This document shows, piece after piece, positions 12,700 through 45,747 of a DNA stretch of 57,849 nucleotides. Numbering within the stretch: position 1 is the first letter of the stretch; every line of letters begins with the position of its first letter. The stretch is from Alphaproteobacteria bacterium (GTDB taxonomy: Bacteria; Pseudomonadota; Alphaproteobacteria; M2410): NCBI GenBank assembly GCA_030614785.1, contig JAUWTJ010000017.1, positions 1 through 57,849 on the forward strand, read 5' to 3'. The notes beneath the pieces were generated by a model. It saw only the letters and a list, made by a program, of their open reading frames with translations. It had not been told where the DNA came from and ran no database searches. The position numbers and the translations under genes are program-made.

Positions 12700-12703
12700 C
12701 GGG

Positions 12704-18338: not shown

Positions 18339-18348
18339 AAAGAGCGAT

Positions 18349-19971: not shown

Positions 19972-19976
19972 CTGCC

Positions 19977-21200: not shown

Positions 21201-21261
21201 TCGCGCTTGCCGGGTGCGTAAGAGCGAACGTGATGCCGCCTTGATGCAAAAGGCCAATCTC

Positions 21262-23222: not shown

Positions 23223-23242
23223 GCCCTGAGAGCGTTCAGGGC
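23223..23242. terminator. Hairpin between convergent genes, possible terminator
   Basis: GCCCTGA-GAGCGT-TCAGGGC, a perfect 7-bp stem, starts at the base after the FemAB-like stop. It has no T-run on either side, so it may be a weak or Rho-assisted terminator for the convergent transcripts. Confidence 0.4.
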
Positions 23243-23257
23243 ACGGTTCGGCAAAGT

Positions 23258-24466: not shown

Positions 24467-24613
24467 AGAATCCCTATACCTGTCGTTTTATCTTAATGCG
24501 AGGGGATAAGGGCAAATCTGCGAGAAAGGAAAGGTATTGATCTTGCATATTCAATCGAGATTGCTTTTGATGCCTCAAATTTTTGCCAGGAGCGGCTGGA
24601 GCTGTGTGACGCC

Positions 24614-26269
24614 ATGACGGAACAAAGAGATTTGAGTGGTTCTCCGGAGACATCGGAAAAGCACGTAAACGCAGGGTTGGAGCCGCACTCTGGCGGGCCC
24701 GGTCGCGGTGCAAGTGGCTTTGCGAGCGGCGCGGCTGTCTCAACTGTGGACGGGATCTACGGCTGGCGGCTGGCGCTTTTGCTGCTGTGTGCCGCTTTGG
24801 CATTAACTCTGGGCCTGTATGGCGCTTCGGCGGCTTCGGCGGTTGATTTGTGGTGGAACCGGTCGTCCTATAATCACGGGTTTTTGATTATCCCGATTTC
24901 TCTCTATCTCGTCTGGGACAAGCATGAAGCGCTGGCGGCCATGACCCCGCGTCCTTCGATGGGCGGGCTGCTGGTTGTCGCGGGCTTTTCCCTGGCGTGG
25001 ACCATCTGCCGGGCTGCCGGAATTAATGAGGGCGAGCATTTTGCTCTTGTCGGAGTTATCCAGGGGGTGGTCCTTGCTGTGCTGGGACGTCAACTGTTTA
25101 TGTCCATGATTCTGCCAATGGCGTACCTGTGGCTGATGGTTCCGACCGGGACGGTGCTCTACCCGATTTTGCAAGGGGCGGCGCACTGGCAGACCGTGGC
25201 GATGTTGCAGCTCTCGGGCATTCCGGTCTTCGGCGAGGGGTTTTTCGTTCAGGTGCCAACCGGTCTCTACGAGGTGGCGGAAGGCTGTTCGGGTCTTAAT
25301 TTCATTCTGGCTGGTCTCGCGCTCGCGCCACTGTTCGGGTACATGATGTACGACGGGATGCGCAAAAGGCTCATTGCGATCGGTGCCATGCTGGTCATTG
25401 CGGTTGTTGCAAATGGTATTCGTATCTACGCGATTATAGCGCTTGCCGAGTTCAGCAATCGGCGTATCGATATTGTTGATGATCACCTGCTCTATGGTTG
25501 GGGCTTTTTTGCCGTGGTCCTGGTGATCGCCGGATATGTCGGCTCCCGCTTTGCCGATCCGGAGCGCCCGGCGCGCACGGAGCCCTACGCGCTGGCAGTC
25601 CATGTTGAACGCAAATCCCTGGTGACCGGCGCCGCTTTTGCCATGATCGTTCTGGCGCTGTTGCCGCTCTATCGCCTTGCAGCGGTGACATCCGGATTTG
25701 AGCCGGAGACAGGCCGCATAGATCTTGCAGGCTTGCAGCTTGAGAGCGTGGCAGAAGCTGGCGATGGCTGGCTGCCTGACTTTCCCCGGGCGACCAAAAC
25801 CCTTCAGTTTCAGGGGTCTCGTCATAATATTACGGCTGATATTTATCTGGCCGGCTATTTCAATCCGCGCGATGCGAGCGAGATGATCACATCAGGCAAT
25901 GATCTTGCCGGTTCTTCTGCGTACCACTCGCTTGGCGGATATTCCCGGCAAATCGCAAGTGCGGATGGTACCGTGATCTGGCGGTTTGTTCAGTTGGGTT
26001 CGCGCTCCGGCGCGCGGCTGGTCGCTCAGGCCCGGCAGGTTGACGGCACTTTTGTGACAAGCGCCCTCAAAGCCAAATTGCTGCAGGCCAAAGCGACATT
26101 ACTCTGGAGCAAGAAAAGCTCCGGCGTCATTCTCATTTCTGTTCCCGTCACAGTGGATTTTGAGAAAGCTGAAGGCGACCTCACCCGGTTTATTGAAGGC
26201 GCTGATCTGACGGGTTTGTTTGCGCCAAGACCAGATCGTTCCACACCGCCCCCGTTCGGCGAAAGGTAG
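24614..26269 (+). CDS. xrtA: Exosortase A fused to an EpsI domain
   Basis: A 551-residue multi-pass membrane cysteine transpeptidase. The three catalytic residues are in place: Cys225 in AEGCSGLNF, Arg270 in NGIRIYA and His291 in DDHLLYGWG. About eight transmembrane helices lie between residues 48 and 350. From about residue 350 the protein continues with an EpsI-type domain facing the periplasm, the fused form common for XrtA. Exosortase A cuts the C-terminal PEP motif of sorted proteins and is thought to hand them to an envelope acceptor. The first 45 residues are a polar cytoplasmic tail. The ATG at 24614 is preceded by GGAG at a long spacing. The amidotransferase gene starts nine bases after the stop. 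Confidence 0.95.
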   Translation: MTEQRDLSGSPETSEKHVNAGLEPHSGGPGRGASGFASGAAVSTVDGIYGWRLALLLLCAALALTLGLYGASAASAVDLWWNRSSYNHGFLIIPISLYLVWDKHEALAAMTPRPSMGGLLVVAGFSLAWTICRAAGINEGEHFALVGVIQGVVLAVLGRQLFMSMILPMAYLWLMVPTGTVLYPILQGAAHWQTVAMLQLSGIPVFGEGFFVQVPTGLYEVAEGCSGLNFILAGLALAPLFGYMMYDGMRKRLIAIGAMLVIAVVANGIRIYAIIALAEFSNRRIDIVDDHLLYGWGFFAVVLVIAGYVGSRFADPERPARTEPYALAVHVERKSLVTGAAFAMIVLALLPLYRLAAVTSGFEPETGRIDLAGLQLESVAEAGDGWLPDFPRATKTLQFQGSRHNITADIYLAGYFNPRDASEMITSGNDLAGSSAYHSLGGYSRQIASADGTVIWRFVQLGSRSGARLVAQARQVDGTFVTSALKAKLLQAKATLLWSKKSSGVILISVPVTVDFEKAEGDLTRFIEGADLTGLFAPRPDRSTPPPFGER

Positions 26270-26278
26270 GTTCTGCTC

Positions 26279-28204
26279 GTGTGCGGTATTACGGCTCTGG
26301 TCAACTTCAGTGCGGCCACAGGATTTGATCCTGATCTGATCCGTCCCATGACGGATGCCATCGCCCACAGGGGGCCGGATGGCGACGGATTTTATTTTTC
26401 TGACGGTGTTGCTCTGGGACACAGGCGGCTGTCGATCATTGATATTGCCGGTGGCCACCAACCGATGCTCACCGCCGACGGGAAAGTTGCCGTCGTCTTC
26501 AATGGCGAGATCTACAATTTCATGTCGCTGCGCAAAGATCTTGAAGACCGGGGCTCGCGCTTTCAAACGCGCTGCGATACCGAGGTCATTCTCGAGGCCT
26601 GGCGGCACTTTGGACCAGACTGTGTCGATCATCTGGGCGGTATGTTTGCCTTCATCCTGTGGGATGAAGAGGCGCAAACGCTGTTCGCGGCGCGCGACCG
26701 GCTTGGCAAGAAACCGCTTTATTACTCTCACTTGCCTGATGGCTCAACGGCGTTTGGTTCAGAGCTCAAGGCGCTCAAGGTGCTGCCGGGGCTCAACCGG
26801 ACGCTTGATCTTTCTGCGGTTGAGGATTTTTTCGCCTATGGCTATGTGCCGGATCCAAAGTCGATTTACGCGCATGTCAAAAAACTTCCCCCTGCGCATC
26901 GCCTGTTGTGGAAGCGGGGCGCCGCGCCGCGCATTGATCGCTATTGGGATCCGACGCTTGAACCGCTTGCGGTGAACCAGCCGGACGCCGAAGCGGACCT
27001 TGTCGAACGGCTGAAACAATCAACGGCCATGCGCCTGATTTCTGATGTGCCGCTTGGCGCTTTTTTGTCGGGCGGTGTTGATTCCAGTGCGATTGTCGCG
27101 CTGATGGCGGAGCAGGGCGGCGAGCCTGTCAAAACATTTTCCATTGGCTTCGGGGCGCGTGAGTTTGACGAAACAGAATATGCCAGGGACATTGCGACCC
27201 GTTACAAGACCGACCATCGGGTCAACCGTGTTGACCCAAACGATTTTTCGATGATCGATCAGCTGGCGGATATTTTTGATGAACCGTTTGGGGATTCTTC
27301 CGCGCTGCCAACCTACCGGGTCTGCGCGGCGGCGCGGCAAGGTGTGACGGTTGCGCTTTCGGGAGACGGCGGGGATGAGCTTTTTGGCGGCTACCGGCGC
27401 TATATGTATCACCGGCACGAAGAAACCCTGCGCCGTAAAATACCCGGCGGACTGCGCCGCGCTGTCTTCAAGCCGCTGGGGCAGATCTATCCCAAGCTCG
27501 ATAGGGCGCCGCGGTTCCTGCGGGCCCGGACGACGTTTCAGGAACTGGGCGGTGATGAGGTCTGGGGCTTTTTCAGCGGTGTTTCGGCAACCGCTGATGA
27601 AACCAGGCTGGCCTTGTTCAGTGACACTTTGAAATGGGATCTGGACGGGTATCACGCGGTCGAGGTTTTGAAGCCCCATTTTGAGCGGGCTGACGGTGAC
27701 GATCCGCTGGCCAGGGCGCAGTATGTTGATTTCCAGACCTGGCTCGCGGGCGGCATTCTTACCAAGGTCGATCGGACCTCGATGGCGGTTTCGCTGGAAG
27801 TGCGTGCGCCGCTGCTTGATCACAGGCTTGCGGAATGGGCCTTGCGCCTTCCAACGGGCCTCAAAATTCAGGGCAGGAACGGCAAGGCCATTCTCAAGTC
27901 GGCGATGGAGACCAGGTTGCCAGGTGATATTCTTTACCGCCCCAAGCAGGGGTTCTCCATGCCGATCACGGACTGGTTCCGGGGTCCCTTGCGCTCACGG
28001 GTCGAGGCCATGGTGAACAATGGTGCGTTGCTGGAGAGCGGGCTGTTTGATCGCAAGGCCTTGCGGGCTCTTGGAGACGAGCATATTTCGGGACGCCGTG
28101 ACCATGCACGCACGCTTTGGCTATTGTTTGTCTTTTCACGATTTCTTGAAAACGAAGCCGGGATAAACTCGGCGACTGGCTCAGCCGATCACATTGTCCG
28201 GTAG
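26279..28204 (+). CDS. XrtA/PEP-CTERM system amidotransferase (asparagine-synthase-like)
   Basis: A 641-residue class II glutamine amidotransferase plus synthetase. The start is a GTG at 26279, which makes the catalytic Cys residue 2 (MCGITALVNF) as required after Met removal. The glutaminase domain shows AHRGPDGDGFY and GHRRLSIID; the synthetase domain has the ATP pyrophosphatase loop FLSGGVDSSAIVAL and the SGDGGDELFGGYRRY motif. This matches the exosortase-A-linked group TIGR03108, presumed to amidate a sugar acid or related residue. It is nine bases after xrtA and surely in its operon. Confidence 0.94.
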   Translation: MCGITALVNFSAATGFDPDLIRPMTDAIAHRGPDGDGFYFSDGVALGHRRLSIIDIAGGHQPMLTADGKVAVVFNGEIYNFMSLRKDLEDRGSRFQTRCDTEVILEAWRHFGPDCVDHLGGMFAFILWDEEAQTLFAARDRLGKKPLYYSHLPDGSTAFGSELKALKVLPGLNRTLDLSAVEDFFAYGYVPDPKSIYAHVKKLPPAHRLLWKRGAAPRIDRYWDPTLEPLAVNQPDAEADLVERLKQSTAMRLISDVPLGAFLSGGVDSSAIVALMAEQGGEPVKTFSIGFGAREFDETEYARDIATRYKTDHRVNRVDPNDFSMIDQLADIFDEPFGDSSALPTYRVCAAARQGVTVALSGDGGDELFGGYRRYMYHRHEETLRRKIPGGLRRAVFKPLGQIYPKLDRAPRFLRARTTFQELGGDEVWGFFSGVSATADETRLALFSDTLKWDLDGYHAVEVLKPHFERADGDDPLARAQYVDFQTWLAGGILTKVDRTSMAVSLEVRAPLLDHRLAEWALRLPTGLKIQGRNGKAILKSAMETRLPGDILYRPKQGFSMPITDWFRGPLRSRVEAMVNNGALLESGLFDRKALRALGDEHISGRRDHARTLWLLFVFSRFLENEAGINSATGSADHIVR

Positions 28205-28235
28205 ACCTCGGGCCCGGTAGATCACAGGCTGGCGA

Positions 28236-28388
28236 TTACAGGCCCAGCAAACTGATAATTCCCAGCCAGCCAAATCCTGCCAGAATGAACCAGATCATCA
28301 GTCCGGCACCCACAGAAACGCGTTCATCGCCCTGGGCATGCCGGGCGCGGGTCTGATCAAGAGGGACAGCTTTGTGGAAACTCATCAT
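28236..28388 (-). CDS. Putative single-pass membrane microprotein in the XrtA locus
   Basis: A 50-residue reading frame. The N-terminal 28 residues are polar and charged (HKAVPLDQTRARHAQGDERV), followed by one transmembrane segment GAGLMIWFILAGFGWLGI and a short hydrophobic end LLGL. The start is the ATG at 28388 (a second ATG follows at once), with GGAATGAG about five bases upstream. It lies between the amidotransferase (convergent, 31 bp) and a glycosyltransferase gene transcribed in the same direction 128 bp upstream. I do not recognise a family. The clean split of polar head and hydrophobic tail and the ribosome site argue for a real gene; conservation is not tested. Confidence 0.6.
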   Translation of the reverse strand: MMSFHKAVPLDQTRARHAQGDERVSVGAGLMIWFILAGFGWLGIISLLGL

Positions 28389-28516
28389 TGTTCTCATTCC
28401 GAATCACTTACGAGTCTAGCTCATTGGAAGATTAGGAAGAGATATTTAATAGAGTCTTAAAGATCTCCCGCAGGATTGTCTAAAATGTGACAATATGCAG
28501 CGCAGACAAGGCAAAT

Positions 28517-29710
28517 TCATCCGCTGCGCGTATGTTGCGCGATGATTTCCCCAAAAAGGTCAATCTGTCCCTGACTTGTTTCGTCCCAGCTGAACGCCTC
28601 GGCATAGGTGCGGGTCTTTGCCCGGTCCGGCAGATTGGCGAGAAGCGCGCCGGCGGCACTGGCAAGCGCTTGCGGCGAGCGTTCGTCTACCACGACGCCC
28701 GCTTCGGGCGCGCCGACGACTTCGCCGGATCCCCAGACATTTGTTGCGATGACTGGCGTGCCGCAGGCCATGGCTTCGAGCAGGACATTGGGCCAGCCTT
28801 CGCGGCTGGAGGCGAGGACCAGTGCGTCTGCGGCGGAGTAGATTTCAGGCAGGCTTTCATGGGGCAGGACCCCGAGAAATGTAACCCGGCTGGTGAGCCC
28901 GAGTTTGTCCGTTAAACGCTCCAGAGCGCGGCGTTCGGGCCCGTCACCGGCGATGAGAAGATCGACACCATCCAGACTTTCGAGCGCCTCGATCACCAGG
29001 TGATGCCCCTTGCGTTCGATCAGGTGGCCGACGCTGAGAAGGGTGGGGCGGGTTAAGCCCAGTTTCTGACGGACCTTGCCGCGTTCGGCCGGTCGGAATG
29101 CTTGCAGGTCGACGCCGTTTCTGAGGACGCGGGTTGGCGGCAGGGTGATGTCCGGCGGGACCATGTCCTCGAGCGCGTCCTTGAGGGCGCCGGCGACGGT
29201 GATGATGCCGCTGGCGCGGGCCGCCGCCCAAAGGATCTGCGCTTTGGGGCTGGCATATTGCGGGATGAGGTTAATGTCGGTGCCCCGTGCGGTAACAGTG
29301 AAGGGCAGATTAAATGTTTGTGCAAGGTGGGCGGCTGCCACGCCATCAGGATAAAAGTAGTGTGCATCAATGAGATCAAAGGGGCCGTGTTCCTCAATGA
29401 TCTGTCCGATGTTGGCACGCACCGAGTTGAACATGAGGCGCGGCGCGGCGTTCATGCCCACTTTGGGGATGTGCAGATAACGGGGATGATGCACGATTAA
29501 TCCGTGTCTTGTTTCTGTTTTGGGCACTCGGGCAAAGTCGGCGTATTTTCCGAAATACTTGTGACGCCATGGAAACCAGGGCACCGGGGCAACCACATGG
29601 GCCGACACCTGACCGGTCCGGACGAGCTGGCGGAGCCGGTTTTCGACAAATATGCCGTGGGTCGGTTGAACGGCATTGGGAAATAAAGTTGAAAAAGTCA
29701 GTATTCGCAT
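28517..29710 (-). CDS. Glycosyltransferase family 4
   Basis: A 397-residue GT-B enzyme. The N-terminal acceptor domain starts ILTFSTLFPNAVQPTHGIFVENRL. The middle has FTVTARGTDINLIPQY, and the C-terminal donor domain has LLSVGHLIERKGHHLVIEAL, IAGDGPERRALE and the E-x7-E motif in SSREGWPNVLLEAMACGTP. It probably adds one sugar of the exopolysaccharide repeat unit; donor and linkage cannot be told. The gene faces away from the 30095 gene across a 384-bp spacer. The ATG at 29710 starts an MRILTFST N-terminus typical of the family. Confidence 0.9.
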   Translation of the reverse strand: MRILTFSTLFPNAVQPTHGIFVENRLRQLVRTGQVSAHVVAPVPWFPWRHKYFGKYADFARVPKTETRHGLIVHHPRYLHIPKVGMNAAPRLMFNSVRANIGQIIEEHGPFDLIDAHYFYPDGVAAAHLAQTFNLPFTVTARGTDINLIPQYASPKAQILWAAARASGIITVAGALKDALEDMVPPDITLPPTRVLRNGVDLQAFRPAERGKVRQKLGLTRPTLLSVGHLIERKGHHLVIEALESLDGVDLLIAGDGPERRALERLTDKLGLTSRVTFLGVLPHESLPEIYSAADALVLASSREGWPNVLLEAMACGTPVIATNVWGSGEVVGAPEAGVVVDERSPQALASAAGALLANLPDRAKTRTYAEAFSWDETSQGQIDLFGEIIAQHTRSG

Positions 29711-29958
29711 GGCTGTTTATTTCAATAAGGCGATATAAGTGGAAGAAAATTGCCTGGTATTTGCAAGGTCTGCAAACCCCGAGCTTTCAAGGTATCTGCG
29801 ACCAAGACAATGGCCAGACATTCGGATTTCCGGTTCAATTTAACGTCGTCAGGATGTATAGTTTGCATTGAGTTGCTGGCGGGCTTGCGTTGTGCGGTCA
29901 AATACCAAATGGTTAATGCTTGCCGGTTGTCCACAGGGATGCATACCAATAAACGGGG

Positions 29959-29991
29959 CGGGAAGACTATTTAAATATCCCGGTTTTTTTT
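29959..29991 (+). terminator. Weak hairpin with T-run in the leader of the 30095 gene
   Basis: CGGGA (29959-29963) pairs with TCCCG (29978-29982) around a 14-base AT-rich loop and is followed by eight T (29984-29991). The stem is only five base pairs, so it is a weak terminator or attenuator candidate about 100 bp before the gene start. Confidence 0.3.
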
Positions 29992-29998
29992 AGCGTTC

Positions 29999-30015
29999 TG
30001 GCATCGAAATTGAAG
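29999..30015 (+). promoter_or_regulatory. Candidate sigma-54 promoter (imperfect)
   Basis: TGGCAT-CGAAA-TTGAAG fits the -24/-12 pattern TGGCAC-N5-TTGCA with intact GG and correct spacing, but GA instead of GC at -12. It is about 80 bp upstream of the priming glycosyltransferase gene. PrsR, encoded 3.6 kb downstream, is a sigma-54 activator, which makes the match worth listing. Confidence 0.25.
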
Positions 30016-30041
30016 ATGAGTGTGAAATTGAAGATGAGTGT
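30006..30041 (+). repeat. Perfect 18-bp tandem duplication
   Basis: GAAATTGAAGATGAGTGT occurs twice in direct succession (30006-30023 and 30024-30041), in the leader 54 bp before the start codon at 30095. The first copy overlaps the -12 part of the sigma-54-like box. It may be a slippage product or paired binding sites. Confidence 0.9.
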
Positions 30042-30094
30042 TGTGTATGAGCTTTGCCGTGGTGGGAGAGCTTAAAGAGTAGTTAGGGGCATGA

Positions 30095-31528
30095 ATGCTG
30101 AAAGTTTTTCGGCACTTTCTCGTCGTTCCAGTATCGTTGCTGGCGATTGCTGAGACAGCGCTTTTTCTCGTTGTGATTACAGGCCTGCAGGCTGTCGGAT
30201 CCAGGACGTTCCTGGCGACCAATGCCCCTGATGTGATCCGGCCTTATGTGGTTTTGTTTTTGACGGGACTGACGTTTGTCTGTCTTGCGGCAGCCGGACT
30301 CTATAACAGAGATGTCTTTATCGAGGCGCGAACCTTCTTTCAGAGGGCCGGGGTCGCTCTCTTGCTTGTGATCTTCACAGCTCTTGTGATCTTTCCGATT
30401 TACGGCCTGTTTGATCCGGTGACCGTCGAGTGGTATCTCGGGCTGCTGTCCTTTACCCTCCTCATTCACTATCCGCTGATGATCATTCTGCGATTTGGCC
30501 TGGTTGCCTTTTCCGGCGTGGATATGTTCAAGCGACGCGTGATCGTTGTTGGTGACGGGGTCCTGTCAGGAAAGGTTCGCCAACTGATTGAAAACCGCGG
30601 CCAGGCCCATCTGACTTCGGTCGGGTTTATCAACCGCGATACGTTTAGTGAACTTGCCGGGAAGAATGAACCGGTGTCCGAGCAGGGCGATTTGCACAAC
30701 TCGACCCTGGGTCAGGACAGCGCCCTGCTGCGCTTTGCCATGGACAACAAGGTGGACGAAATTGTTGTCGCCTCGCGGGAGCGGCGCGGTTTGCCGGTCT
30801 GGCAGCTCTTGCAATGCCGGATGGCCGGGGTTGCGGTGACTGATTATATGACATTCTGGGAACGTGAGTCTGGCGAGATTGACATTGATGAGGTCAAGCC
30901 CAGCTGGCTTGCCCTGTCGGATGGTTTTGACCGCCACTGGATGAGACGCGCGGTGAAACGGCTTTTTGATATTGTTGTGTCGGCAAGCTTTTTGATCGTT
31001 GTGGCGCCGGTGATGCTGGCGGCGGCCCTTTTTATTAAACTGGAAAGCCCTGGTCCGGTCTTCTATCGCCAGACCCGTGTTGGCGAAGGCGGGCGGCACT
31101 TTGATATCATCAAGTTCAGATCGATGAGTGTTAATGCCGAACAGGATGGTGTGCCGCAATGGGCGGTCAAGAATGATGCGCGCGTGACCCGGGTTGGCAC
31201 TGTCATCCGCAAATTGCGGATCGACGAAATACCGCAGATTCTCAATGTTCTGAAGGGCGAGATGAGTTTTATCGGACCTAGACCGGAACGTCCCTATTTT
31301 GTTGATACTCTTTGTGCGGAGATACCGCTTTATGCGGTTCGTCACAACGTCAAACCGGGCATTACCGGATGGGCTCAGGTCAATTACCCCTATGGTGCCT
31401 CGATTGATGATGCGCGCCGGAAACTCACCTTTGACCTTTACTACGTAAAGAATGAAAACCTGTTCCTCGATCTCGTCATTCTGCTACAAACGGTCAGGGT
31501 TGTTATAATGCTTGCCGGATCTCGGTGA
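30095..31528 (+). CDS. Priming polyprenyl glycosylphosphotransferase, EpsB-like (TIGR03013 type, XrtA-associated)
   Basis: A 477-residue membrane enzyme that transfers the first sugar-phosphate to the lipid carrier. Four N-terminal transmembrane helices (about residues 8-150) precede a Rossmann-like domain (VIVVGDGVLSGKVRQLI). The C-terminal catalytic domain begins at a membrane-entry helix (KRLFDIVVSASFLIVVAPVM) and contains KFRSM, LRKLRIDEIPQ-type and SFIGPRPERPYFV motifs and GITGWAQVNYPYG. The match to the exosortase-A subgroup is good. The start is the ATG at 30095 with AGGGG upstream. It is followed 13 bases later by prsK. Confidence 0.94.
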   Translation: MLKVFRHFLVVPVSLLAIAETALFLVVITGLQAVGSRTFLATNAPDVIRPYVVLFLTGLTFVCLAAAGLYNRDVFIEARTFFQRAGVALLLVIFTALVIFPIYGLFDPVTVEWYLGLLSFTLLIHYPLMIILRFGLVAFSGVDMFKRRVIVVGDGVLSGKVRQLIENRGQAHLTSVGFINRDTFSELAGKNEPVSEQGDLHNSTLGQDSALLRFAMDNKVDEIVVASRERRGLPVWQLLQCRMAGVAVTDYMTFWERESGEIDIDEVKPSWLALSDGFDRHWMRRAVKRLFDIVVSASFLIVVAPVMLAAALFIKLESPGPVFYRQTRVGEGGRHFDIIKFRSMSVNAEQDGVPQWAVKNDARVTRVGTVIRKLRIDEIPQILNVLKGEMSFIGPRPERPYFVDTLCAEIPLYAVRHNVKPGITGWAQVNYPYGASIDDARRKLTFDLYYVKNENLFLDLVILLQTVRVVIMLAGSR

Positions 31529-31541
31529 GGGATACTTTCTC

Positions 31542-33707
31542 ATGGAACTGATAGCCACAATCGGTACCATCTTCTGCGCAGTATCCTATCTGGCGTTGGC
31601 CGGTCTTGCGTTGGCCGGGCGCACGCGGGCAGATCACATCTGGTGGCTGGTCGCGGCGAGCGGACTTACCGTCTTGTGGTCTCTCAGCCATTTGTTTGAA
31701 ACCCGTGCGTTTGTGATGCTTTACGCTCCGGCAGTGTTGATGCTGGATGTCCTGCGGGGCTACGCCTGGGTCGGATTTCTGGCGGCCCTGTCCGGGCTTT
31801 CCGACGGCAGCAACGCCGGTAACGGGCGCGAAGGCCTGGATCGGTGGCTCAAGGGGCTTGTTCTGGTGGCGGTCATTCTGCCGGGTCTGGCGGTCCTGGG
31901 CGGTTTTGCAGTGGAGATTTTTCCGGCTCTTTATGGTTTTCAGGCGTTGTCGGCCTTTCTCAGCGGAACCGGCATGCTGCTGCTCTTGATCGTGGGGCTG
32001 CTTTTGCTGGAGAACCTTTATCGCAATGCCGGAGCAGACCAGCGTTGGGGAACCCGCTATCTGTGTCTGGGACTTTGTCTGTTCTTTGTTTACGATTTTT
32101 TCTTTTATGCAGAGAGCCTTCTGTTCAAGCGATTTGATACAGAGCTTTCTGATGCGCGCCCCTATGTGACCGGCCTTGCGGGGCCGCTGATTGCCCTGTC
32201 GCTGGCTCGGGTGAGGTTTTGGGCGGTTGACCTTCATGTGTCGCGTCAGGTTGTTTTTCAGTCCGCGACGCTTGTCGGTGTCGGGGTCTATCTCATCGTC
32301 ATGTCGATGGTTGGTTACTGGATCCGCCAGTTTGGAGGAGAAGCCGGAACGGTTTTTCAGATCGCCTTTCTTGCCCTTGCGGGCATTATGTTGCTGGCGA
32401 TTTTAGCCTCGGGAAGTTTTCGCTCACGGCTGAGACTGTTTATCGCGCGGCACTTTTACAGTTCGAAATATGATTATCGAGAGGAATGGCTTCGGTTTAT
32501 CACGACGCTCGGATCAGGTGAGGAAAGCTCCAGTATAGCCCAGCGGATCGTTTGGGCCGTGGCGCCGATTGTTGACAGTACAGCCGCAGCGCTCTGGGTA
32601 ACGGATCGCGCGGCCGGTGCCTTGCGCCCTGTCGTTTCGTGGAACTATGGAGACAGCCTGAAACCTCTTGAACTCGATGATCTCTTTGTCAGGAGCATAC
32701 GGGAGACTGGCAATGTGATCGTTCTGGATGAGACGTCGCGGGGCTCGAAAATTGATGTGTTGGTGCCGGACTGGATCACTTCACAGCGTGACACCTGGCT
32801 CATCCTGCCGTTGATCTATCGTGGCCGGATGAACGGGATATTGTTGCTTGGCCAGCCCCGCGCGCCGCGTGCACTTGATTTTGAGGATCGCAATCTGCTG
32901 TCTACCGTTGCCAGTCAGGCGGCGAGTTACCTGGCCGAAGATCGGGCCGCTGGCGCGCTGGCGGATGCGCGCAAGATGGAAGAATTCAATCAACGGTTCA
33001 CGTTTGTCGCCCATGATTTGAAAAACATCGTCAACCAGCTGTCCATGCTTGTTGCCAATGCAACGCGGCACGCCGACAATCCGGACTTTCAAAAAGACAT
33101 GGTCACGACTGTTACCAATTCTGTTGATCGAATGAATGGCATGATGAAGAACCTGACCACCCGCTCCGAGGCAGCCGTGGTGCCGGACGGTATTGAAACG
33201 TTGAATATTCCCGTTTTTGACCTCGTGGAGGCTCTCAGTGACTTCGCCTCGGACTGGCAAGCGCAGGGCGCGCGGGTGCGATTTGATCATGACGGCGGCG
33301 CGCTCAGTATTGCTACAAAGCGCGATGTATTGGTGTCGGCCTTGAACCATATGGTACAAAATGCCATTGATGCGACCGGACCGGCAAGTTTGGTCCGGGT
33401 TTTGCTAGTGAGAGGTGAGAGGAGCTTTAGTGTCGAGGTGATCGATACCGGGCCAGGAATGGAGCCGGACTTTGTGGAAAGCGTATTCTTTAAGCCGTTC
33501 GGGACAACACGCGAAGGCGGCTACGGTATTGGCGGGTTCCAGATTCGCAGCCAAATTCGTGATCTTGGCGCCAGGCTGGAGGTGTTTTCGACCCCCGGGC
33601 AGGGCACAACTATCAGAGTGACCTTTCCGTTGGAGAAATTTGCAGAGAAAACGAGTCCTCTTACTGATATTGATCACCCTCATACTGAAATTGATCAAAG
33701 GACCTGA
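31542..33707 (+). CDS. prsK: PEP-CTERM system sensor histidine kinase PrsK
   Basis: A 721-residue membrane histidine kinase. About nine transmembrane helices span residues 1-305. A GAF-type domain (about 315-475) precedes the H-box FVAHDLKNIVNQL with phosphoacceptor His491. The ATPase domain has N-box HMVQNAIDAT, G1 DTGPGMEPDF and G2 GGYGIGGF. This layout with the H-D-L-K-N box is typical of PrsK. The start is the ATG at 31542; a TTG at 31512 would overlap the previous gene. Its stop TGA overlaps the prsR start (TGATG), so the pair is translationally coupled. The signal it reads is unknown. Confidence 0.93.
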   Translation: MELIATIGTIFCAVSYLALAGLALAGRTRADHIWWLVAASGLTVLWSLSHLFETRAFVMLYAPAVLMLDVLRGYAWVGFLAALSGLSDGSNAGNGREGLDRWLKGLVLVAVILPGLAVLGGFAVEIFPALYGFQALSAFLSGTGMLLLLIVGLLLLENLYRNAGADQRWGTRYLCLGLCLFFVYDFFFYAESLLFKRFDTELSDARPYVTGLAGPLIALSLARVRFWAVDLHVSRQVVFQSATLVGVGVYLIVMSMVGYWIRQFGGEAGTVFQIAFLALAGIMLLAILASGSFRSRLRLFIARHFYSSKYDYREEWLRFITTLGSGEESSSIAQRIVWAVAPIVDSTAAALWVTDRAAGALRPVVSWNYGDSLKPLELDDLFVRSIRETGNVIVLDETSRGSKIDVLVPDWITSQRDTWLILPLIYRGRMNGILLLGQPRAPRALDFEDRNLLSTVASQAASYLAEDRAAGALADARKMEEFNQRFTFVAHDLKNIVNQLSMLVANATRHADNPDFQKDMVTTVTNSVDRMNGMMKNLTTRSEAAVVPDGIETLNIPVFDLVEALSDFASDWQAQGARVRFDHDGGALSIATKRDVLVSALNHMVQNAIDATGPASLVRVLLVRGERSFSVEVIDTGPGMEPDFVESVFFKPFGTTREGGYGIGGFQIRSQIRDLGARLEVFSTPGQGTTIRVTFPLEKFAEKTSPLTDIDHPHTEIDQRT

Positions 33708-35062
33708 TGAGCGAACCAAAACGCAAGATCCTCGTTGTCGAAGACGATCCGGGTATTCAGAGCCAGATGAAATGGGCGCTGGATGATCTGGATGTTTTTG
33801 TTGCCAGTGATCGCCCCGAGGCGCTGGCCATTCTCCGCAGGGAGGAGCCCAGGGTTATCATCCTTGATCTGGGAATGCCGCCGGATGAGGCCGGTGTGAC
33901 CGAGGGTCTTGCGGCCCTCGAGGAAGCCCTGCGGCTTGATCCGTCAACCAAGGTGATTGTTGCATCAGGAAATTCAGAGCGCGTTCATGCGGTTGAGGCG
34001 GTGCGTCTCGGAGCCTATGACTATTGTTCCAAACCGGTTGATATTGATGCTCTGAAACTCATCATTGAGCGCGCCTTTCATCTTTATGATCTGGAGGTCG
34101 ACTATGATCGCCTCGCACAGGAAAAAACGGCAGAGCCCTTTGAGGGGGTCATCGCGTCGAGTTCAACCATGCTGAAGATTTGTAAAGGCATTGAGAAGGT
34201 CGCCAGCGCCGATGTCAGCGTAATTTTTACCGGTGAAAGCGGAACTGGCAAGGAAGTGATGGCTAAAGCCCTGCACCGATTGAGTAGCCGCGCGACAGGT
34301 CCTTTTGTTGCTATCAATTGTGCAGCGATACCGGAAAATTTACTGGAGAGCGAACTCTTTGGCCACGAAAAAGGGGCCTTCACCGGCGCGGTCCAGAGGC
34401 AGCTTGGCAAGGTTGAGGGCGCCGATGGCGGGACATTGTTTCTTGATGAGATTGGCGACATGCCACTTGCCTTGCAATCCAAGGTCCTGCGGTTTTTGCA
34501 GGAACGTCAATTTGAACGGGTTGGCGGGCGAACCTCAATCAAGGTTGATGTCAGACTGGTTTCGGCGACCAATATGAACCTGGAGGACGCCATTGCCGAC
34601 GGCCGGTTTCGGGAAGACCTTTTTTATCGCCTCAATGAAATCTCTTTCCATATTCCGCCGCTGCGCGAGCGCACGGGCGATACGGGGCTGCTGGCCAAAT
34701 TCTATCTGGCCAAATTTGCGGCTCTCTATGGGAAGAAAAACCGAGGGTTTACCGAAGAAGCCCGGGGGGCAATTGACGCTTACGCATGGCCCGGCAATGT
34801 TCGGGAGCTTGAAAATAAACTGAAGCGTGCCGTGGTCATGTCCGAGGATGCACCGATCGAACCTGATGACCTCGATCTGCAAATGGGGGAAGGTGATTTT
34901 GTCTTTCCTACTTTGAAGCAGGTCCGCGAGAGGGCGGAGCGGGAACTTATCGAGCGGGCGCTGACCACAAGTGATACTAATGTAACCCAGGCGGCAAAGT
35001 TGCTCGGCGTATCAAGACCAACACTCTACGAATTGATGAAATCTCTGGGGATGAAGGCCTGA
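33707..35062 (+). CDS. prsR: PEP-CTERM-box sigma-54-dependent response regulator PrsR
   Basis: A 451-residue NtrC-type activator. The receiver domain has the acidic pair VEDDP and phosphoacceptor Asp54 in IILDLGMPPD. The AAA+ domain has Walker A GESGTGKE, the sigma-54 contact loop GAFTGA at residues 223-228, and Walker B GGTLFLDEIGD. The Fis-type helix-turn-helix is at the C-terminus (NVTQAAKLLGVSRPTLYELM). With PrsK it forms the two-component system that activates sigma-54 promoters of PEP-CTERM and EPS genes in other bacteria. The overlap with prsK confirms the pairing. Confidence 0.95.
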   Translation: MSEPKRKILVVEDDPGIQSQMKWALDDLDVFVASDRPEALAILRREEPRVIILDLGMPPDEAGVTEGLAALEEALRLDPSTKVIVASGNSERVHAVEAVRLGAYDYCSKPVDIDALKLIIERAFHLYDLEVDYDRLAQEKTAEPFEGVIASSSTMLKICKGIEKVASADVSVIFTGESGTGKEVMAKALHRLSSRATGPFVAINCAAIPENLLESELFGHEKGAFTGAVQRQLGKVEGADGGTLFLDEIGDMPLALQSKVLRFLQERQFERVGGRTSIKVDVRLVSATNMNLEDAIADGRFREDLFYRLNEISFHIPPLRERTGDTGLLAKFYLAKFAALYGKKNRGFTEEARGAIDAYAWPGNVRELENKLKRAVVMSEDAPIEPDDLDLQMGEGDFVFPTLKQVRERAERELIERALTTSDTNVTQAAKLLGVSRPTLYELMKSLGMKA

Positions 35063-35112
35063 GGTTCCCAAGCTGGACCCGCAGAGCCTTTTTTGAGGAA
35101 AGGAAGAGCGAA

Positions 35113-37917
35113 ATGAGTAGTAAAATTCTGATGAGACGTCTGTCCATGAGCTGTGCTGCGATCGTTGTCGCGCTTGGCATGACGGGCGTGCCTGCGGGGC
35201 AGGCTGAAGCTGCGGTGAGTGAAAAGTCTGTTCGCTTTTATGACAAGGCTCAGGATCATGTGAAAAAGGGCGATCTCAATGCGGCTGTGATTCAGCTCAA
35301 GAATGCCATTCGCTCGGACGCCAATAATGTCGATGCGAGGGTTCAACTGGCATCGATCTATCTTGCTCAGGGCCATCCGGAAGGGGCCGAAAAAGAATTC
35401 AAGGCGGCGCGGGCTCGTGGCTATGACTCGGGGAAGATTGTTTCAAGTCTTGCCGAGGCCTACATCGTGCAAGGAAAGTTTCAGGACCTGCTGGATGATT
35501 TTCAGGATGAGCAGCTTGACGGTGAGCCGCAGGCCATGCTTTCGATTTATCGCGCTCAAGCCTATATTTCCCTGAAGCAATATGATGAAGCTGAAAAGGC
35601 GCTTGAGGGCGCGCGGGCAATCGACCCTGATATGCCCGAGATTTATATGGTGAGCAGCTGGCTCAGGCGCACAGCAGGCGATCTGGCCGGCGCCGAGGCT
35701 CTGGTTGATGTTGTTCTCAAAGCGACCCCTGACAGTCTTGATGCTCTGATGCAAAAGGCCGACCTGCGACGCATTGCAACGGATAACGAGGGTGCGGTCG
35801 AGTTTGCGACAAAGGCACTTGAGCAAAACCAGTTTCGAAGGGCGCCGCGGGTAACCCGCGGCATGGCTTATGCAGCTCTGGGGCAATTCGACAATGTCCT
35901 GAGCGATGCAGAGGTTCTTCTGGAGCGCGATGAACATGACCCGATCGGGGCTTTCCTGAAGGCCTGGGGCTATGCGCAGAAGGGCGAAGTTGAAACTGCA
36001 CTGGCGGCGCTGGCGCTGGGCCAGGGCCTGGAAAACTTTCAGCCCGCTCAATATCTTGGCGCGGCGCTTCATTTGAGATCCGGGGCGCTGCAACAGGCCC
36101 GTGTAGAAAGTGACAGAGACCTGTCAGTGAGCCCGAGCAACAAACAGGCGCTTATTACATCAAGCGCCATCTACTATCAGGCCGGTGACTACCAGGCCTC
36201 GGCAGACGTGCTGGAGCCGCTCTATCAGGCCGACCCTCAGGACGTGCGGGTTGTGACCCTGCTGGCCTATGCCTATGAGAAAACAGGCGATCAGGGCAAG
36301 GCTGCAGCGCTGTTTGATGAAGCGATTAATCTGGGAAGCGGGGACGAAGACCTTCAGCTTCGTGCCGCTCAGGCCAAAATCGGCTCCGGTGATCTTGAAA
36401 GCGGAATGGCTGATTTGATTTCCCTGACGGGTTCCGAGAGCGGAGGCGACCGCGCGGCAACGTTGCTTTTCCTGACCCAGTTGCGGGCAAAGGATTTTGA
36501 TGGGGCCGCCAGTGCTCTTGACCGTCTTGAGACGCTCAAGGGCAGGTCCGCAGAGACTGAAAATTTCCGGGCGTCTCTGGCGCTCGCAAGGGGCGATGTT
36601 GCTACGGCTGAAGCGCATCTCAAGAGCTCGCTTGCTTTGCAAAACGATTATCAGGCCGCGCGTCTCAATCTGGCGCGACTATATCGTACCCGGAAAGATC
36701 CCGGTGGTGCGGCGGCAGAGTATGAAAAGCTGCTGCAGCAGCAACCGGGATACCTGGCGGCTGTTACCGGACTTGTCGAGATGGCGCTCGAGCGGCAGGA
36801 CGAAAAGGAAATTGTTCGTCTTGTGAATCTGGCGGTCAAGGAAAACCCGGAGAATGAGAAGGCTCACCTGCTGAAGGTTCAGCAACTTATCTCTCTTGGG
36901 CGCAAGGACAAGGCGCTCACGGCGGCCCGTAATTTCGTTGCCGCGCTGCCGGAAAGTCCGGCGGCCTATGATGCGCTTGCTCGCGGGCAAATGGTTTCGG
37001 GCGACGTGACCTCAGCCATCGTGACCTATCGGCAGCTCGTTGCCCGCGTGCCGGACAATGCTGTGGCGCACTTCCGGCTGGCGCAGGTGCTGATCGCCAA
37101 TGGAGATCATACCGATGCGATGTTTGCTCTTGAGAAGACCCTTGCGCTGGATCCGTCCAGTAACGAGGCGAGGCAGCAACGCATTGATATGGAGCAGAAA
37201 GTCCACGGAGACGAGCGTGCTCGGGTTATGGCGCGTAAACTCTTTGCAGAGGCGCCGGATACATCAGACCGTTCGCTTGGTCTTGGCAAGGCTCTTATCA
37301 AGCTGGGCCGGGCTGACGAAGGTCTTGAACTTATCGTCACGACCTTTGAAGACGTGGGAGGCGGCAAAGAGCTTGTCGCCCTTTATCAAGCCTATGACCT
37401 GGCCAACCGACCGCTGAAAGCCATCGAAGCGATGGTGGCATGGGTTGAGGAGCATCCCGAAGCCGGGGATATTCAGCTGGTCGTGTTTTCGCGGTTTATT
37501 GGTCTTGGCTATTGGGGCGAGGCGATCCGGCATGGCGAAATGCTGCATAAGGCCAATCCGAAAAATGTTGTCATTCTGAACAACCTTGCCTGGGTCTACG
37601 AGAAAGTCGGCCGGATTGAAGAGGCAACGGCGTTTGCAAAACAGGCGACTGATTCTGCGCCCGGGGTGGCTGAAATTGCCGACACCTATGGGTGGATCCT
37701 GTTTGAGCACGGTGATGCCGGTGAAGCCGAGGTCGTTCTTGCCGAGGCCGCCGGAGTGGCACCGGAGAATCGGATAGTTCAATTCCACCATGCCGCCGCG
37801 CTGGCAAAGATCGGCCGAAAGGCGGCCGCAGTGGCCAAGCTGAAGGCCCTGCTTGCCGACGGCAGCGAATTTGATGATCGCGCGGCCGCGACAGCGCTCC
37901 TCGGCGAACTGGAATAG
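35113..37917 (+). CDS. prsT: PEP-CTERM system TPR-repeat protein PrsT
   Basis: A 934-residue secreted or periplasmic repeat protein. A signal peptide (about residues 1-35, ending in QAEAA) precedes a chain of about 20 tetratricopeptide-type helix pairs with recurring A-x3-L-x6-P patterns throughout. The length and position directly after prsR match PrsT. It is thought to be a scaffold of the EPS/PEP-CTERM machinery. The ATG at 35113 follows AGGAAGAG at normal spacing, and the next gene starts five bases after its stop. Confidence 0.93.
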   Translation: MSSKILMRRLSMSCAAIVVALGMTGVPAGQAEAAVSEKSVRFYDKAQDHVKKGDLNAAVIQLKNAIRSDANNVDARVQLASIYLAQGHPEGAEKEFKAARARGYDSGKIVSSLAEAYIVQGKFQDLLDDFQDEQLDGEPQAMLSIYRAQAYISLKQYDEAEKALEGARAIDPDMPEIYMVSSWLRRTAGDLAGAEALVDVVLKATPDSLDALMQKADLRRIATDNEGAVEFATKALEQNQFRRAPRVTRGMAYAALGQFDNVLSDAEVLLERDEHDPIGAFLKAWGYAQKGEVETALAALALGQGLENFQPAQYLGAALHLRSGALQQARVESDRDLSVSPSNKQALITSSAIYYQAGDYQASADVLEPLYQADPQDVRVVTLLAYAYEKTGDQGKAAALFDEAINLGSGDEDLQLRAAQAKIGSGDLESGMADLISLTGSESGGDRAATLLFLTQLRAKDFDGAASALDRLETLKGRSAETENFRASLALARGDVATAEAHLKSSLALQNDYQAARLNLARLYRTRKDPGGAAAEYEKLLQQQPGYLAAVTGLVEMALERQDEKEIVRLVNLAVKENPENEKAHLLKVQQLISLGRKDKALTAARNFVAALPESPAAYDALARGQMVSGDVTSAIVTYRQLVARVPDNAVAHFRLAQVLIANGDHTDAMFALEKTLALDPSSNEARQQRIDMEQKVHGDERARVMARKLFAEAPDTSDRSLGLGKALIKLGRADEGLELIVTTFEDVGGGKELVALYQAYDLANRPLKAIEAMVAWVEEHPEAGDIQLVVFSRFIGLGYWGEAIRHGEMLHKANPKNVVILNNLAWVYEKVGRIEEATAFAKQATDSAPGVAEIADTYGWILFEHGDAGEAEVVLAEAAGVAPENRIVQFHHAAALAKIGRKAAAVAKLKALLADGSEFDDRAAATALLGELE

Positions 37918-37922
37918 TCAGG

Positions 37923-39035
37923 ATGCGCGTGCTTCATGTATTCCCGACTTTTGAGGTCGGGGGGCAACAGATGCGCGCCGCCGCGCTGGCCAATGGTATG
38001 GCCAGGGTGGGGGGCATGGCTAGTGAAGGCATTCACAACCTGGTCCTCTCACTGAACGGGGACATGGGGTGTGCGGAGAGGTTTTCCGATGAGGTTTCGT
38101 GGGAACCTGTTGCCGCGCCAGCTTCAGGGTCAGTGGGCCTGGTCGGGTGCATTCTTGCCGCCCGAAAGACCATAGCCGCGCTCAAGCCTGATTTGCTGCT
38201 CACCTATAATTGGGGCGCGATTGAATGGGCGGCGGCGAATTATTGGCCGTTGTGCCGTCATATTCATATTGAAGACGGCTTCGGGCGGGAAGAGGCAGAA
38301 GGGCAGATCCGGCGCCGGGTGCTATTTCGGCGGTTGGTTCTTTCGCGCCGGTCCCGTGTCGCCTTTCCCTCGCATACGCTTTATGACATTGCGCGTGATA
38401 TCTGGCGACTGCCGGAGGCACGTCTGTGCTATATCCCAAACGGGATTGACCTTGCACCGTTCGGGTCCGTGTCGCGCGAAGAAGCGCGCATGAGTTTTGC
38501 CCTGCCGCACGGCAAACCCGTCATCGGGACCCTTGCGACCCTCAGGCCGGAAAAAAATCTGGGACGTCTGCTGGAGGCCTTTCACGGCGTTTGCCAGGAC
38601 GTCGATTGCCATCTTGTTATTGCCGGCGATGGCAGCGAGCGCGCCGGCCTTGAGGCCCATGCCAGACGCCTGGGGCTGGGCGATGCGGTCAGCTTTCCCG
38701 GTTTTATCAAAGCGCCGCACACGATTTTGCCGGCGTTTGATATTTTTGCCCTGAGTTCTGACACGGAGCAGATGCCGCTCAGTATTATGGAAGCCATGGC
38801 CGCCGGTCTGCCCGTCGCCAGCCTTGATGTGGGCGATGTACGCCACATGGTGGCACAGGAGAACAGGGATTACATATCAGGCCGGGAACTTCCTGCCCTG
38901 ACGGGGTCTCTTTTGGCGCTTCTTGGCGGCTCTGTGGACCGCGCCGCTATTGGTGGTGCGAACAAAAGATTGGCAGAATATGAATTTGATGACGAAAAAA
39001 TGCTTTCATCCTGGAAGGATTTGTTTATAGACTGA
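37923..39035 (+). CDS. Glycosyltransferase family 4 in the prs operon
   Basis: A 370-residue GT-B enzyme. It starts MRVLHVFPTFEVGGQQMRAA, with the GG acceptor-side loop, continues with HIHIEDGFGREEAEGQ and YIPNGIDLAPF, and has the donor-site motifs IGTLATLRPEKNLGRLLEAF, VIAGDGSERAGLE and SSDTEQMPLSIMEAMAAGLP (E-x7-E). It belongs to GT4; a link to the XrtA-linked TIGR03088 group is possible but I cannot confirm it. It starts five bases after prsT, so it is co-transcribed with the regulatory genes. Confidence 0.9.
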   Translation: MRVLHVFPTFEVGGQQMRAAALANGMARVGGMASEGIHNLVLSLNGDMGCAERFSDEVSWEPVAAPASGSVGLVGCILAARKTIAALKPDLLLTYNWGAIEWAAANYWPLCRHIHIEDGFGREEAEGQIRRRVLFRRLVLSRRSRVAFPSHTLYDIARDIWRLPEARLCYIPNGIDLAPFGSVSREEARMSFALPHGKPVIGTLATLRPEKNLGRLLEAFHGVCQDVDCHLVIAGDGSERAGLEAHARRLGLGDAVSFPGFIKAPHTILPAFDIFALSSDTEQMPLSIMEAMAAGLPVASLDVGDVRHMVAQENRDYISGRELPALTGSLLALLGGSVDRAAIGGANKRLAEYEFDDEKMLSSWKDLFID

Positions 39036-43338: not shown

Positions 43339-44634
43339 TCATTCGCTTCTGGTTCGAAGGATGTATTGTTGCAGCGCGATGGTCATCGCAACAAAGTAAT
43401 AGAGGAATGGCTGGAAGGCGATCCCGATAAAGGCGCCGCCTGTTGCAAAGACACAAACTGCCATTAGCATTGCTGTAGCCAAAGACTTTTGCCATGGCTG
43501 TTGTCTGTCGCCCGCTCTCATCGACATCAGGCGTAGAAGGGTGAGTCCCAGGATGGTGAGATAAATGAAGAGGCCGACAAAGCCGTGTTCGCCGAGAACC
43601 TCAAAATAGATACTGTGAAACGCCTTGCCGGATTGCTCTCGTATGCGAACCTTTCCCCTGGATGGCCGGTTGTCAGCCCCCGATTGCTGTGTTTCGATGG
43701 TGATGTTGTTGATACGATAGACTTCAAATCCCCCGCCAAGGGGGTTTTCTTTTGCATAGTTATAAGTCCAGCCCCATGCCGCCAGGCGGCCCACGGCTGA
43801 ACTGTCACCCTCATAATCGACTGTTGTCAGCATCCGGTCTTTCCATTGCTGGGGAGCCAGATTGAGTAGCATCAATGAGGCTACCGTGATGCCCAGGAAA
43901 TAACGGACCCGGTGCTTGAGAAAAACAAGGGTCACCAGGCCAAGGGCTGCCAGGGCGATGATACCAGTCCTCGCAGACGTCCCAACCACGGCAAAAATTA
44001 CCATGACCGACAAGCCGGCGAATAACACGTCGGTTGCGCGCCCTGGCTTGAAAATGAGGGAATGCTTTCTGAAGTGAAGCATGACAGGAATGAGCATTAC
44101 TGATACCAAGGCTAGGGTGCTGCTCTCCGCAAGACCCATGTTTCCCTGTATCAAGCCACCCAGACTTTGATAGCCTCCTCCTCCGAGAGCCGTCTTGGCA
44201 CCTGCCGTAAGAAAAAAGCTGGACGTTGAAAAAACGACGATCAGGAAAAACGCCTCGATTTGAATCCGAGTTCGGAACAAAAATGGCATGAAGGCTGCAA
44301 AGGTAATGCTCTTGAAGGCCCAGTTCCATTTGATCCAGGCGTTTTCAGGGACTTCCGCCCAGGTGGTTGTCAGGGTTACCCACAGAGCCCATACAATAAG
44401 CAAAACATGCAGGAATGTCATTTTCGGCGGATGTTTTCGATCAAGAAGCAGATAGAGGCTAATGGTCGTGACGGCCATGATCTGAGAAATGGGTTGGCCA
44501 TTGATAATTGAGTAGGCCAATCTTTGAGGTGTGACCATATCGATCCAAAGGTATCCCAGGCCCGCTGCGAAAGGCGCGACAAAGCCGTAGAAAAGGAATA
44601 TTGAAAAGACCCCCAAAAGGAAAATTGACCTCAT
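43339..44634 (-). CDS. O-antigen-ligase-like protein, exosortase A-associated (TIGR03097 type)
   Basis: A 431-residue polytopic protein with about 11 hydrophobic helices. The N-terminal FYGFVAPFAAGLGYLWIDMVTPQRLAY region is the DUF5935 head of the exosortase-A ligase group. A large periplasmic loop (about residues 265-345) with GRLAAWGWTYNYAKENPLGGGFE and FHSIYFEVLGEHGFVGL is the Wzy_C ligase/polymerase core, with the conserved His. It is presumed to polymerise or ligate glycan repeat units in the periplasm. Its ATG at 44634 overlaps the stop of the upstream microprotein gene in ATGA. Confidence 0.92.
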   Translation of the reverse strand: MRSIFLLGVFSIFLFYGFVAPFAAGLGYLWIDMVTPQRLAYSIINGQPISQIMAVTTISLYLLLDRKHPPKMTFLHVLLIVWALWVTLTTTWAEVPENAWIKWNWAFKSITFAAFMPFLFRTRIQIEAFFLIVVFSTSSFFLTAGAKTALGGGGYQSLGGLIQGNMGLAESSTLALVSVMLIPVMLHFRKHSLIFKPGRATDVLFAGLSVMVIFAVVGTSARTGIIALAALGLVTLVFLKHRVRYFLGITVASLMLLNLAPQQWKDRMLTTVDYEGDSSAVGRLAAWGWTYNYAKENPLGGGFEVYRINNITIETQQSGADNRPSRGKVRIREQSGKAFHSIYFEVLGEHGFVGLFIYLTILGLTLLRLMSMRAGDRQQPWQKSLATAMLMAVCVFATGGAFIGIAFQPFLYYFVAMTIALQQYILRTRSE

Positions 44635-44792
44635 TTCGGCGACCTCTCAGGGCTGCGATCCTTTGGTGGTTGCGAATCCTTGTTGTCGTCCGCTTCTTTG
44701 AACCAGGGGGCACGCTGATCAAGCTTTACAGCGTGGAACACGGTGTACAAAATGAGTGCGTGGGAAATCAAAATTGCAATCGTGTCAACCAT
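44631..44792 (-). CDS. Putative membrane microprotein translationally coupled to the O-ligase
   Basis: A 53-residue reading frame. It has an N-terminal transmembrane segment (IAILISHALILYTVFHAV, about residues 5-22), then QRAPWFKEAD and a polar Lys/Asp/Pro/Arg tail. The start is the ATG at 44792, with GGA about nine bases upstream. The stop TGA lies in the ATGA overlap with the ligase start at 44634, the same coupling used by other gene pairs in this locus. I do not recognise a family. The overlap, the membrane segment and the lack of any other content in this spacer support a real gene. It could be a small subunit of the ligase or polymerase complex. Confidence 0.65.
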   Translation of the reverse strand: MVDTIAILISHALILYTVFHAVKLDQRAPWFKEADDNKDSQPPKDRSPERSPK

Positions 44793-44913
44793 TAATAAGA
44801 TCCATTCAAAGAATGAGGGGTCCTGCTCCGACCACGGCGGCAGTGTGAGAAATAAGGCGAAACAAAAGTGGATGTTTCCTCTTGCTGCTGGAAGGTTTCA
44901 CATTTCGCGAGAT

Positions 44914-45747
44914 TCATGTTTTCGGTTTCCACATATCAAGTGATCTGCCCAACAGAATTTCCAGTTCTTTATTGGGCTCATCGAAATGATGATACAGCCG
45001 ATGTGTTGCCGCCGGAGATGGTGCAACCGGTCGCGATTTTGGAAAAATACGATCAATGCCACTTATTACAAGCTCAGCACTCGGGACATAATAGTTTAGT
45101 ATTTGGCCAAACTTTGAGTGCATCCCGCTGTTCTCTCTCTTTGCGATCCTCGGGTTTTCAAAATCTCTTTCAAGATTAAGAAAAGCTGAAATCTTTGAAA
45201 GGGTTTCAATGGGCGTCTTAACGATGTCCTGTTCGAACACGAGAACAAGAACGTCTTTGAAATATTTTTGATACTCGCGGATTTGGTGCGCGTAGTATCC
45301 ACGGCTTAGCATGCCAAATTGTCTTCTGATCCGATCATCTTTTCCTAGAAAAACCTCGTCGGCGCTGATGAATGGCGACAGACGGCGTGCAACAATTTGA
45401 TGGTTCAGGGCCGATATCGCACGGGCGACCGGGTCGCGAAGAACAATAATAATTTTTGCATTCGGGACGCATTGGTGAATGCGTAAGGGAATATCATTTC
45501 GAGCCCCATTGTCTCGATTGATCCATAAATAGTCAGGTGTTTTCTCACCCCTCATCAACTGACTGGCACCGCCTCCAAATTGACTTGCATACCACTCTTC
45601 CCCTAACTTGAAGTTGTCTTCAACATCAAAATAGTGAATCTCACCTTTGCGCATGAAAATATCGGGATGGTCCCGTAGTCTGGCCGCCAGCCACGTCGTC
45701 CCGGCCTTTTGTGCGCCGACGACCAAAAAATTTGGGAGAACGGTCAT
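44914..45747 (-). CDS. Sulfotransferase (PAPS-dependent), first copy
   Basis: A 277-residue cytosolic sulfotransferase. The 5'-phosphosulfate loop is FLVVGAQKAGTTWLAARL and the 3'-phosphate motif is IIIVLRDPVARAISALNHQ, with Arg and Ser in place. It probably sulfates a sugar of the exopolysaccharide. Base composition is clearly more AT-rich than the EPS core to the left, suggesting later acquisition. The start is the ATG at 45747. It lies on the same strand and 121 bp upstream of the microprotein-ligase pair. Confidence 0.9.
   Translation of the reverse strand: MTVLPNFLVVGAQKAGTTWLAARLRDHPDIFMRKGEIHYFDVEDNFKLGEEWYASQFGGGASQLMRGEKTPDYLWINRDNGARNDIPLRIHQCVPNAKIIIVLRDPVARAISALNHQIVARRLSPFISADEVFLGKDDRIRRQFGMLSRGYYAHQIREYQKYFKDVLVLVFEQDIVKTPIETLSKISAFLNLERDFENPRIAKRENSGMHSKFGQILNYYVPSAELVISGIDRIFPKSRPVAPSPAATHRLYHHFDEPNKELEILLGRSLDMWKPKT

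Follow-up and report, generated by a model that had tools for sequence, protein, structure and literature searches.

The window analysed here is the whole 57,849-nt stretch of contig JAUWTJ010000017.1; the coordinates of its relevant features are collected in Table 1. On its minus strand, a small gene (ATG at 44792-44790, stop codon TGA at 44633-44631, 53 codons; product MVDTIAILISHALILYTVFHAVKLDQRAPWFKEADDNKDSQPPKDRSPERSPK) directly precedes the gene of a TIGR03097-type ligase and shares an ATGA stop/start overlap with it, as the first-pass annotation had described; the same coupling, which that annotation had ascribed to other gene pairs of this locus as well, recurs in 4-nt overlaps at 22191/22188 (pepcterm_polyde/pepcterm_femAB) and at 53268/53265. 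The microprotein is present in a single copy in the source genome. Rfam returned no match between positions 43000 and 46200 of the window, and promoter and terminator scans gave nothing specific.

Table 1. Features of the microprotein-ligase locus and its surroundings; positions refer to the window.
Feature	Position	Strand	Basis
TIGR03097/DUF5935 O-antigen-ligase-family protein, 431 aa, presumed partner enzyme	43339..44634	-	TIGR03097, PF19358, PF04932, AF2 model
53-codon single-span microprotein gene (ligase-associated microprotein, A type)	44631..44792	-	Open frame, conserved homologues, dN/dS, helix
ATGA stop/start overlap, microprotein/ligase (4 nt)	44631..44634	-	Sequence; ligase ATG at 44634-44632
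Microprotein start codon and putative weak Shine-Dalgarno-like triplet, GGA, 8 nt before it (GGATCTTATTAATG)	44790..44803	-	Sequence
Sulfotransferase gene, same strand, about 120 nt before microprotein	44914..45747	-	PF13469/PF00685
XrtA exosortase locus: chain-length determinant, tyrosine kinase, FemAB-like protein, exosortase A, amidotransferase, PrsK/response regulator/PrsT, others	15672..39035	mostly +	NCBIfam

The ligase gene lies near an exosortase A system, recognized by TIGR03109 and further XrtA families; the chain-length protein of this system matches TIGR03007. Type I secretion genes (10957-14554) are found at the opposite end of the XrtA locus, and the gene of a 1300-aa RTX-repeat protein (39286-43188) ends convergent to the ligase gene. 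Besides the sulfotransferase listed in Table 1, a larger sulfotransferase-domain protein of 608 aa is encoded near the ligase (51067-52893), and the N-terminal half of this protein (about 340 aa) has no Pfam match; the two sulfotransferase-domain proteins suggest that the product of the locus is sulfated.

The ligase matches the TIGR03097 model (PEP_O_lig_1) with 215 bits over residues 2-423, above the curated cut-off of 188.1 bits; it also matches DUF5935 (PF19358; 1.4e-56) and Wzy_C (PF04932). Its AF2 model (pLDDT 91) matches WaaL across 363 residues (7tpg; Foldseek probability 1.00, Z 23.8); among SEDS polymerases, FtsW and RodA match at Z 10-13 (FtsW 12.9, RodA-PBP2 11.6). Profile comparison with WaaL gave an E-value of 5e-8; the enzyme models as a WaaL/SEDS-like glycosyltransferase. 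Residues H340, R222, R267 and R283 are invariant among 55 relatives, and H340, which falls in the aligned HS/HN stretch of WaaL, may correspond to its catalytic His338.

The microprotein itself has no Pfam or NCBIfam match, and ten members of the two microprotein types described below yielded sub-threshold noise in the same databases; PDB profile matches (cornichon, Rev) were set aside as chance transmembrane-type matches (E 0.03-1). In the AF2 model, a single helix spans residues 2-27 with pLDDT above 90 over most of its length, followed by a charged, low-confidence tail, in agreement with the membrane helix and charged tail of the original description. The members share a common shape: the N-terminus is non-basic, a single helix follows, and a basic step leads into a variable tail. 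In the A type, to which the microprotein of the window belongs, an M-[IVL]-D start is followed by a helix to about residue 22, by an R/K-rich R-x-x-x-R/L-x-D segment and by the variable tail. Lysine and arginine are absent from residues 1-6 in 102 of 104 A-type members, and all 104 carry at least one of them in residues 19-28; by the positive-inside rule, the non-basic N-terminus and the basic step predict an N-out/C-in topology.

As a single-sequence query against 96 related genomes, the 53-mer recovered only noise besides the window itself; since it is too short for direct searches, the ligase was used as the query and the DNA upstream of it was read. The ligase alignment was scanned against GTDB genomes, and the microprotein profile was then applied to the 79 nearest ligase loci. 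The proposal was to be refuted if relatives lacked such a frame upstream of the ligase; a homologous frame is present directly upstream in 78 of these 79 loci. They include an Acetobacteraceae MAG (L091:1108-4350) in which a single microprotein gene stands ahead of the first copy of a tandemly duplicated ligase (copies at 1338-2711 and 3001-4350); the sole locus without the microprotein is on a MAG contig (L150). The nearest ligases of the class sample have the same type of frame upstream, for example MLDTLSILISSALLIYVIVRAILLDRSRPWYPEADE (ligase identity 46%) and LIDIFTILLSHGLILLAAWKLLFRDDLDHE. Two specifics of the first-pass annotation apply more narrowly than proposed. The overlapping stop is found in 59 of 103 adjacent loci, typically as an 8-nt overlap in sphingomonads, whereas the other 44 microprotein genes end upstream of the ligase start (17 within 12 nt, 27 at 13-110 nt); the APWFK-like motif (APWFK/PWF) is confined to the Rhodospirillales/Acetobacteraceae/Massilia branch, and the Sphingomonadales have R-x-DLD-x-E instead. 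Purifying selection acts on the microprotein core, with a dN/dS of about 0.22 in 96 close pairs and pN<pS in all 21 disjoint pairs; constraint on the poorly conserved tail is laxer (dN/dS about 0.50).

Microprotein and ligase also co-occur at the level of genomes. Among 196 Sphingomonadales genomes, 77 carry the ligase subclade and all 77 carry the microprotein, adjacent to the ligase in 75 and unlinked in two. In one of the unlinked cases (G015), the ligase has been relocated, and the microprotein left behind overlaps an acyltransferase gene (Acyl_transf_3; L212:5834-7088); in the other (G598), about 147 kb separate the microprotein from the ligase; the microprotein gene is flanked by genes that we take by eye to be TetR-like and DctA-like, and the ligase is followed by an acyltransferase gene of the same kind as the microprotein neighbor in G015. 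Three further genomes have the microprotein beside other TIGR03097 ligases, and one match was spurious; a match in G433 was discarded for its internal stops. A plasmid search with one sphingomonad member gave no matches. The class sample of 385 genomes gave six matches below 1e-5, each in a genome with the near ligase. In a ligase tree of 170 sequences, the A label clusters, with 2 changes for 112 rows against a shuffled mean of 48.7; in the betaproteobacterium Massilia, an alpha-like ligase is accompanied by its microprotein. The adjacency takes other forms as well: in G432 and G438 the microprotein gene points away from the ligase and is coupled to a different gene. In L213:3981-5164 and L214:4016-5295, a MLEAVAFLIFSVVLMYV-type microprotein coupled to a conserved 338-aa gene diverges from a TIGR03097 ligase; the 338-aa gene has no Pfam match.

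A second, distantly similar type of microprotein ("NDK...GLLAMK") occurs beside more distant alphaproteobacterial TIGR03097 ligases, in 15 of 29 alphaproteobacterial ligase genomes tested and additionally in G446, which scores in both main profiles and bridges the A and GLLAMK types. Other small single-span neighbors of distant ligases are of a "MFDTAMFILF" type, and very short forms (MIDNAVFLFEICLIVCLTIYALKNDDKDND, MIDKLAILVSNFVICWSIYQLWKYEKSE) accompany some ligases in genomes that look gammaproteobacterial, a class assignment made by inference. These small proteins of the more distant ligases are mostly encoded divergent from the ligase; they are downstream in L029, L070, L075 and G096, upstream in G446, and unlinked in G004 and in G348, where the microprotein is encoded elsewhere in the polysaccharide region, at a distance of about 27 kb. 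The variety extends to the taxonomic order of the window itself: in G002, the GLLAMK type is downstream of a ligase that is only 28% identical to that of the window. Among 230 genomes of the class, the GLLAMK profile found eight strong matches, all in genomes with a TIGR03097 ligase; a ninth, weak match (E 1.4e-5) is in G070, a genome without a TIGR03097 match, where the GLLAMK-like small protein MLTGLLFLGTITVVAYLMYWLMTNEKADGEVRPDGIFGWRK (L320:4434-4604) possibly belongs to a wider family of single-span proteins. No partner was found adjacent to 26 ligases of a large non-alphaproteobacterial TIGR03097 group. In L233-L247, a large group of ligases from non-alphaproteobacterial genomes, the TIGR03097 model matched in two parts (1-261 and about 265-405), which indicates an insert between them. 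Unrelated-looking single-span small ORFs lie directly downstream of the ligase in L071, overlapping its end, and 205 nt downstream of a TIGR03097 ligase in L057; they may be more diverged partners.

The pairing of microprotein and ligase is thus strongly supported by the nearest loci and by the Sphingomonadales genomes, and the dedicated small partner proposed at the outset stands in this respect; yet it is not universal for TIGR03097, as the 26 ligases without such a neighbor demonstrate. Beyond the pairing, we infer that the microprotein contacts and activates the ligase. The explanation that we consider rather likely is a dedicated single-span accessory subunit of the TIGR03097/DUF5935 ligase in the inner membrane, stabilizing or activating the enzyme. 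The short, non-basic N-terminus would face the periplasm, the helix would pack against the ligase bundle in the membrane, and the basic step and disordered tail would reside in the cytoplasm; coupled translation would provide matched amounts and co-insertion. A stabilizing or activating free helix is proposed because the ligase fold is like that of WaaL and SEDS proteins and RodA is stimulated by the transmembrane helix of PBP2; alternatively, the microprotein could link the ligase with the chain-length and kinase machinery that the XrtA locus supplies in the cytoplasm. Residue coevolution was examined in 145 microprotein-ligase pairs (Neff about 105). Some residue pairs scored high in raw DCA, but mutual information showed no clear excess over within-clade shuffles, so that no interface is claimed.

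That the 53-codon frame is open by chance, as its shortness and missing family match might suggest, has a negligible probability: homologous frames at the same place in many genomes, purifying selection and genome-wide co-occurrence identify it as a real gene. An inert leader peptide, whose translation opens the ligase ribosome-binding site by the stop-start overlap, would agree with the 76 of 103 loci in which the two genes overlap or are no more than 12 nt apart; it is nevertheless very improbable, in view of constraint at the amino-acid level, of microproteins kept when unlinked from the ligase (G015, G598, G004), and of the second type, which is often divergent or downstream, where no leader could act. 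This varied orientation of the small neighbors argues against a cis-acting leader, although translational coupling may be an extra role of the microprotein.

Somewhat less improbable, but still quite unlikely, is a negative regulator or inhibitor, holding the ligase back until the microprotein tail receives a signal from the cytoplasm. Single-span microproteins can inhibit membrane proteins, as MgrB does with PhoQ, and the charged tail would be suitably placed for such a role; sequence data do not separate activation from inhibition. The strongest competitor, although unlikely, is that the microprotein serves another component of the XrtA surface-polysaccharide system (acyltransferase, exosortase, or chain-length/kinase complex) and is merely encoded beside the ligase. 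The overlap with the acyltransferase gene in G015, the coupling to another gene in G432 and G438, and the remote position in G348 are consistent with this possibility; across arrangements, however, the constant neighbor is the ligase, and in the related locus of G598 the acyltransferase gene comes after the ligase, so that disappearance of the ligase from the interval could account for the acyltransferase adjacency in G015.

A small accessory protein of a membrane enzyme system is a known kind of protein. CydX and KdpF are single-span small subunits that share an operon with the large membrane enzyme they belong to; the likeness to the accessory subunit proposed here is one of kind, and enzymes and gene order differ. 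Wzz proteins have two spans and a large periplasmic domain, unlike the single-span microprotein, and the locus has its own chain-length protein. The element in common with Wzy-Wzz is an enzyme of the Wzy superfamily whose regulator is a membrane protein of its own (PMC10030265), a candidate one in the present case. DltX, encoded first in the dltXABCD operon and essential for cell-surface modification activity (PMC5541007), is likewise a small protein encoded ahead of its partner in a cell-surface system, a likeness of position and proposed role; it works with a different enzyme, on Gram-positive teichoic acids. A mechanistic parallel would be RodA-PBP2 and FtsW-FtsI, given the WaaL/SEDS-type fold of the ligase model: RodA alone has residual activity, and the PBP2 transmembrane helix alone stimulates it (PMC10449877). 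The candidate partner here differs as a free microprotein; it is no class B PBP, with only 53 aa, an unstructured low-confidence tail predicted to be cytoplasmic, and no periplasmic transpeptidase domain.

The microprotein family appears to be undescribed, in line with the initial view that a dedicated small partner of an exosortase-linked ligase would be new: it has no Pfam or NCBIfam model, and a literature search found neither a paper naming TIGR03097 nor a microprotein subunit for a WaaL/Wzy-class ligase. In Sphingomonas LM7, surface-polysaccharide cluster B includes an exosortase-associated amidotransferase, and the EPS study of this strain describes a 64-aa ORF, prmB, in another position and dispensable (PMC11340318). 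Conserved beside the ligase in about a hundred other bacterial genomes, the microprotein is probably an overlooked working partner of this enzyme; A-type genes are easily missed, since 20 of 104 start with GTG or TTG and their median length is about 52 aa, and two profiles are now available for annotation.

A more far-reaching reading, offered tentatively, is that many TIGR03097/DUF5935 ligases, be they from Alphaproteobacteria, from some Gammaproteobacteria or from Massilia, function as obligate two-component enzymes, in which a glycosyltransferase of WaaL/SEDS fold would require a free single-helix activator; the 26 non-alphaproteobacterial ligases without a detectable partner nearby indicate that the family evidently includes ligases able to work alone. 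If true, no microprotein subunit would have been described before for the Wzy/WaaL class, as far as the search showed, and the SEDS principle of an enzyme with an activating transmembrane helix would extend to surface-polysaccharide ligases. TIGR03097 ligases belong to exosortase loci presumed to make polysaccharide or glycoprotein, and their reconstitution or expression could fail if a subunit is missing, for which the microprotein is a candidate. With this pairing it can be tested in a simple way whether WaaL/Wzy-class enzymes are switched on by a partner helix, like their SEDS relatives.
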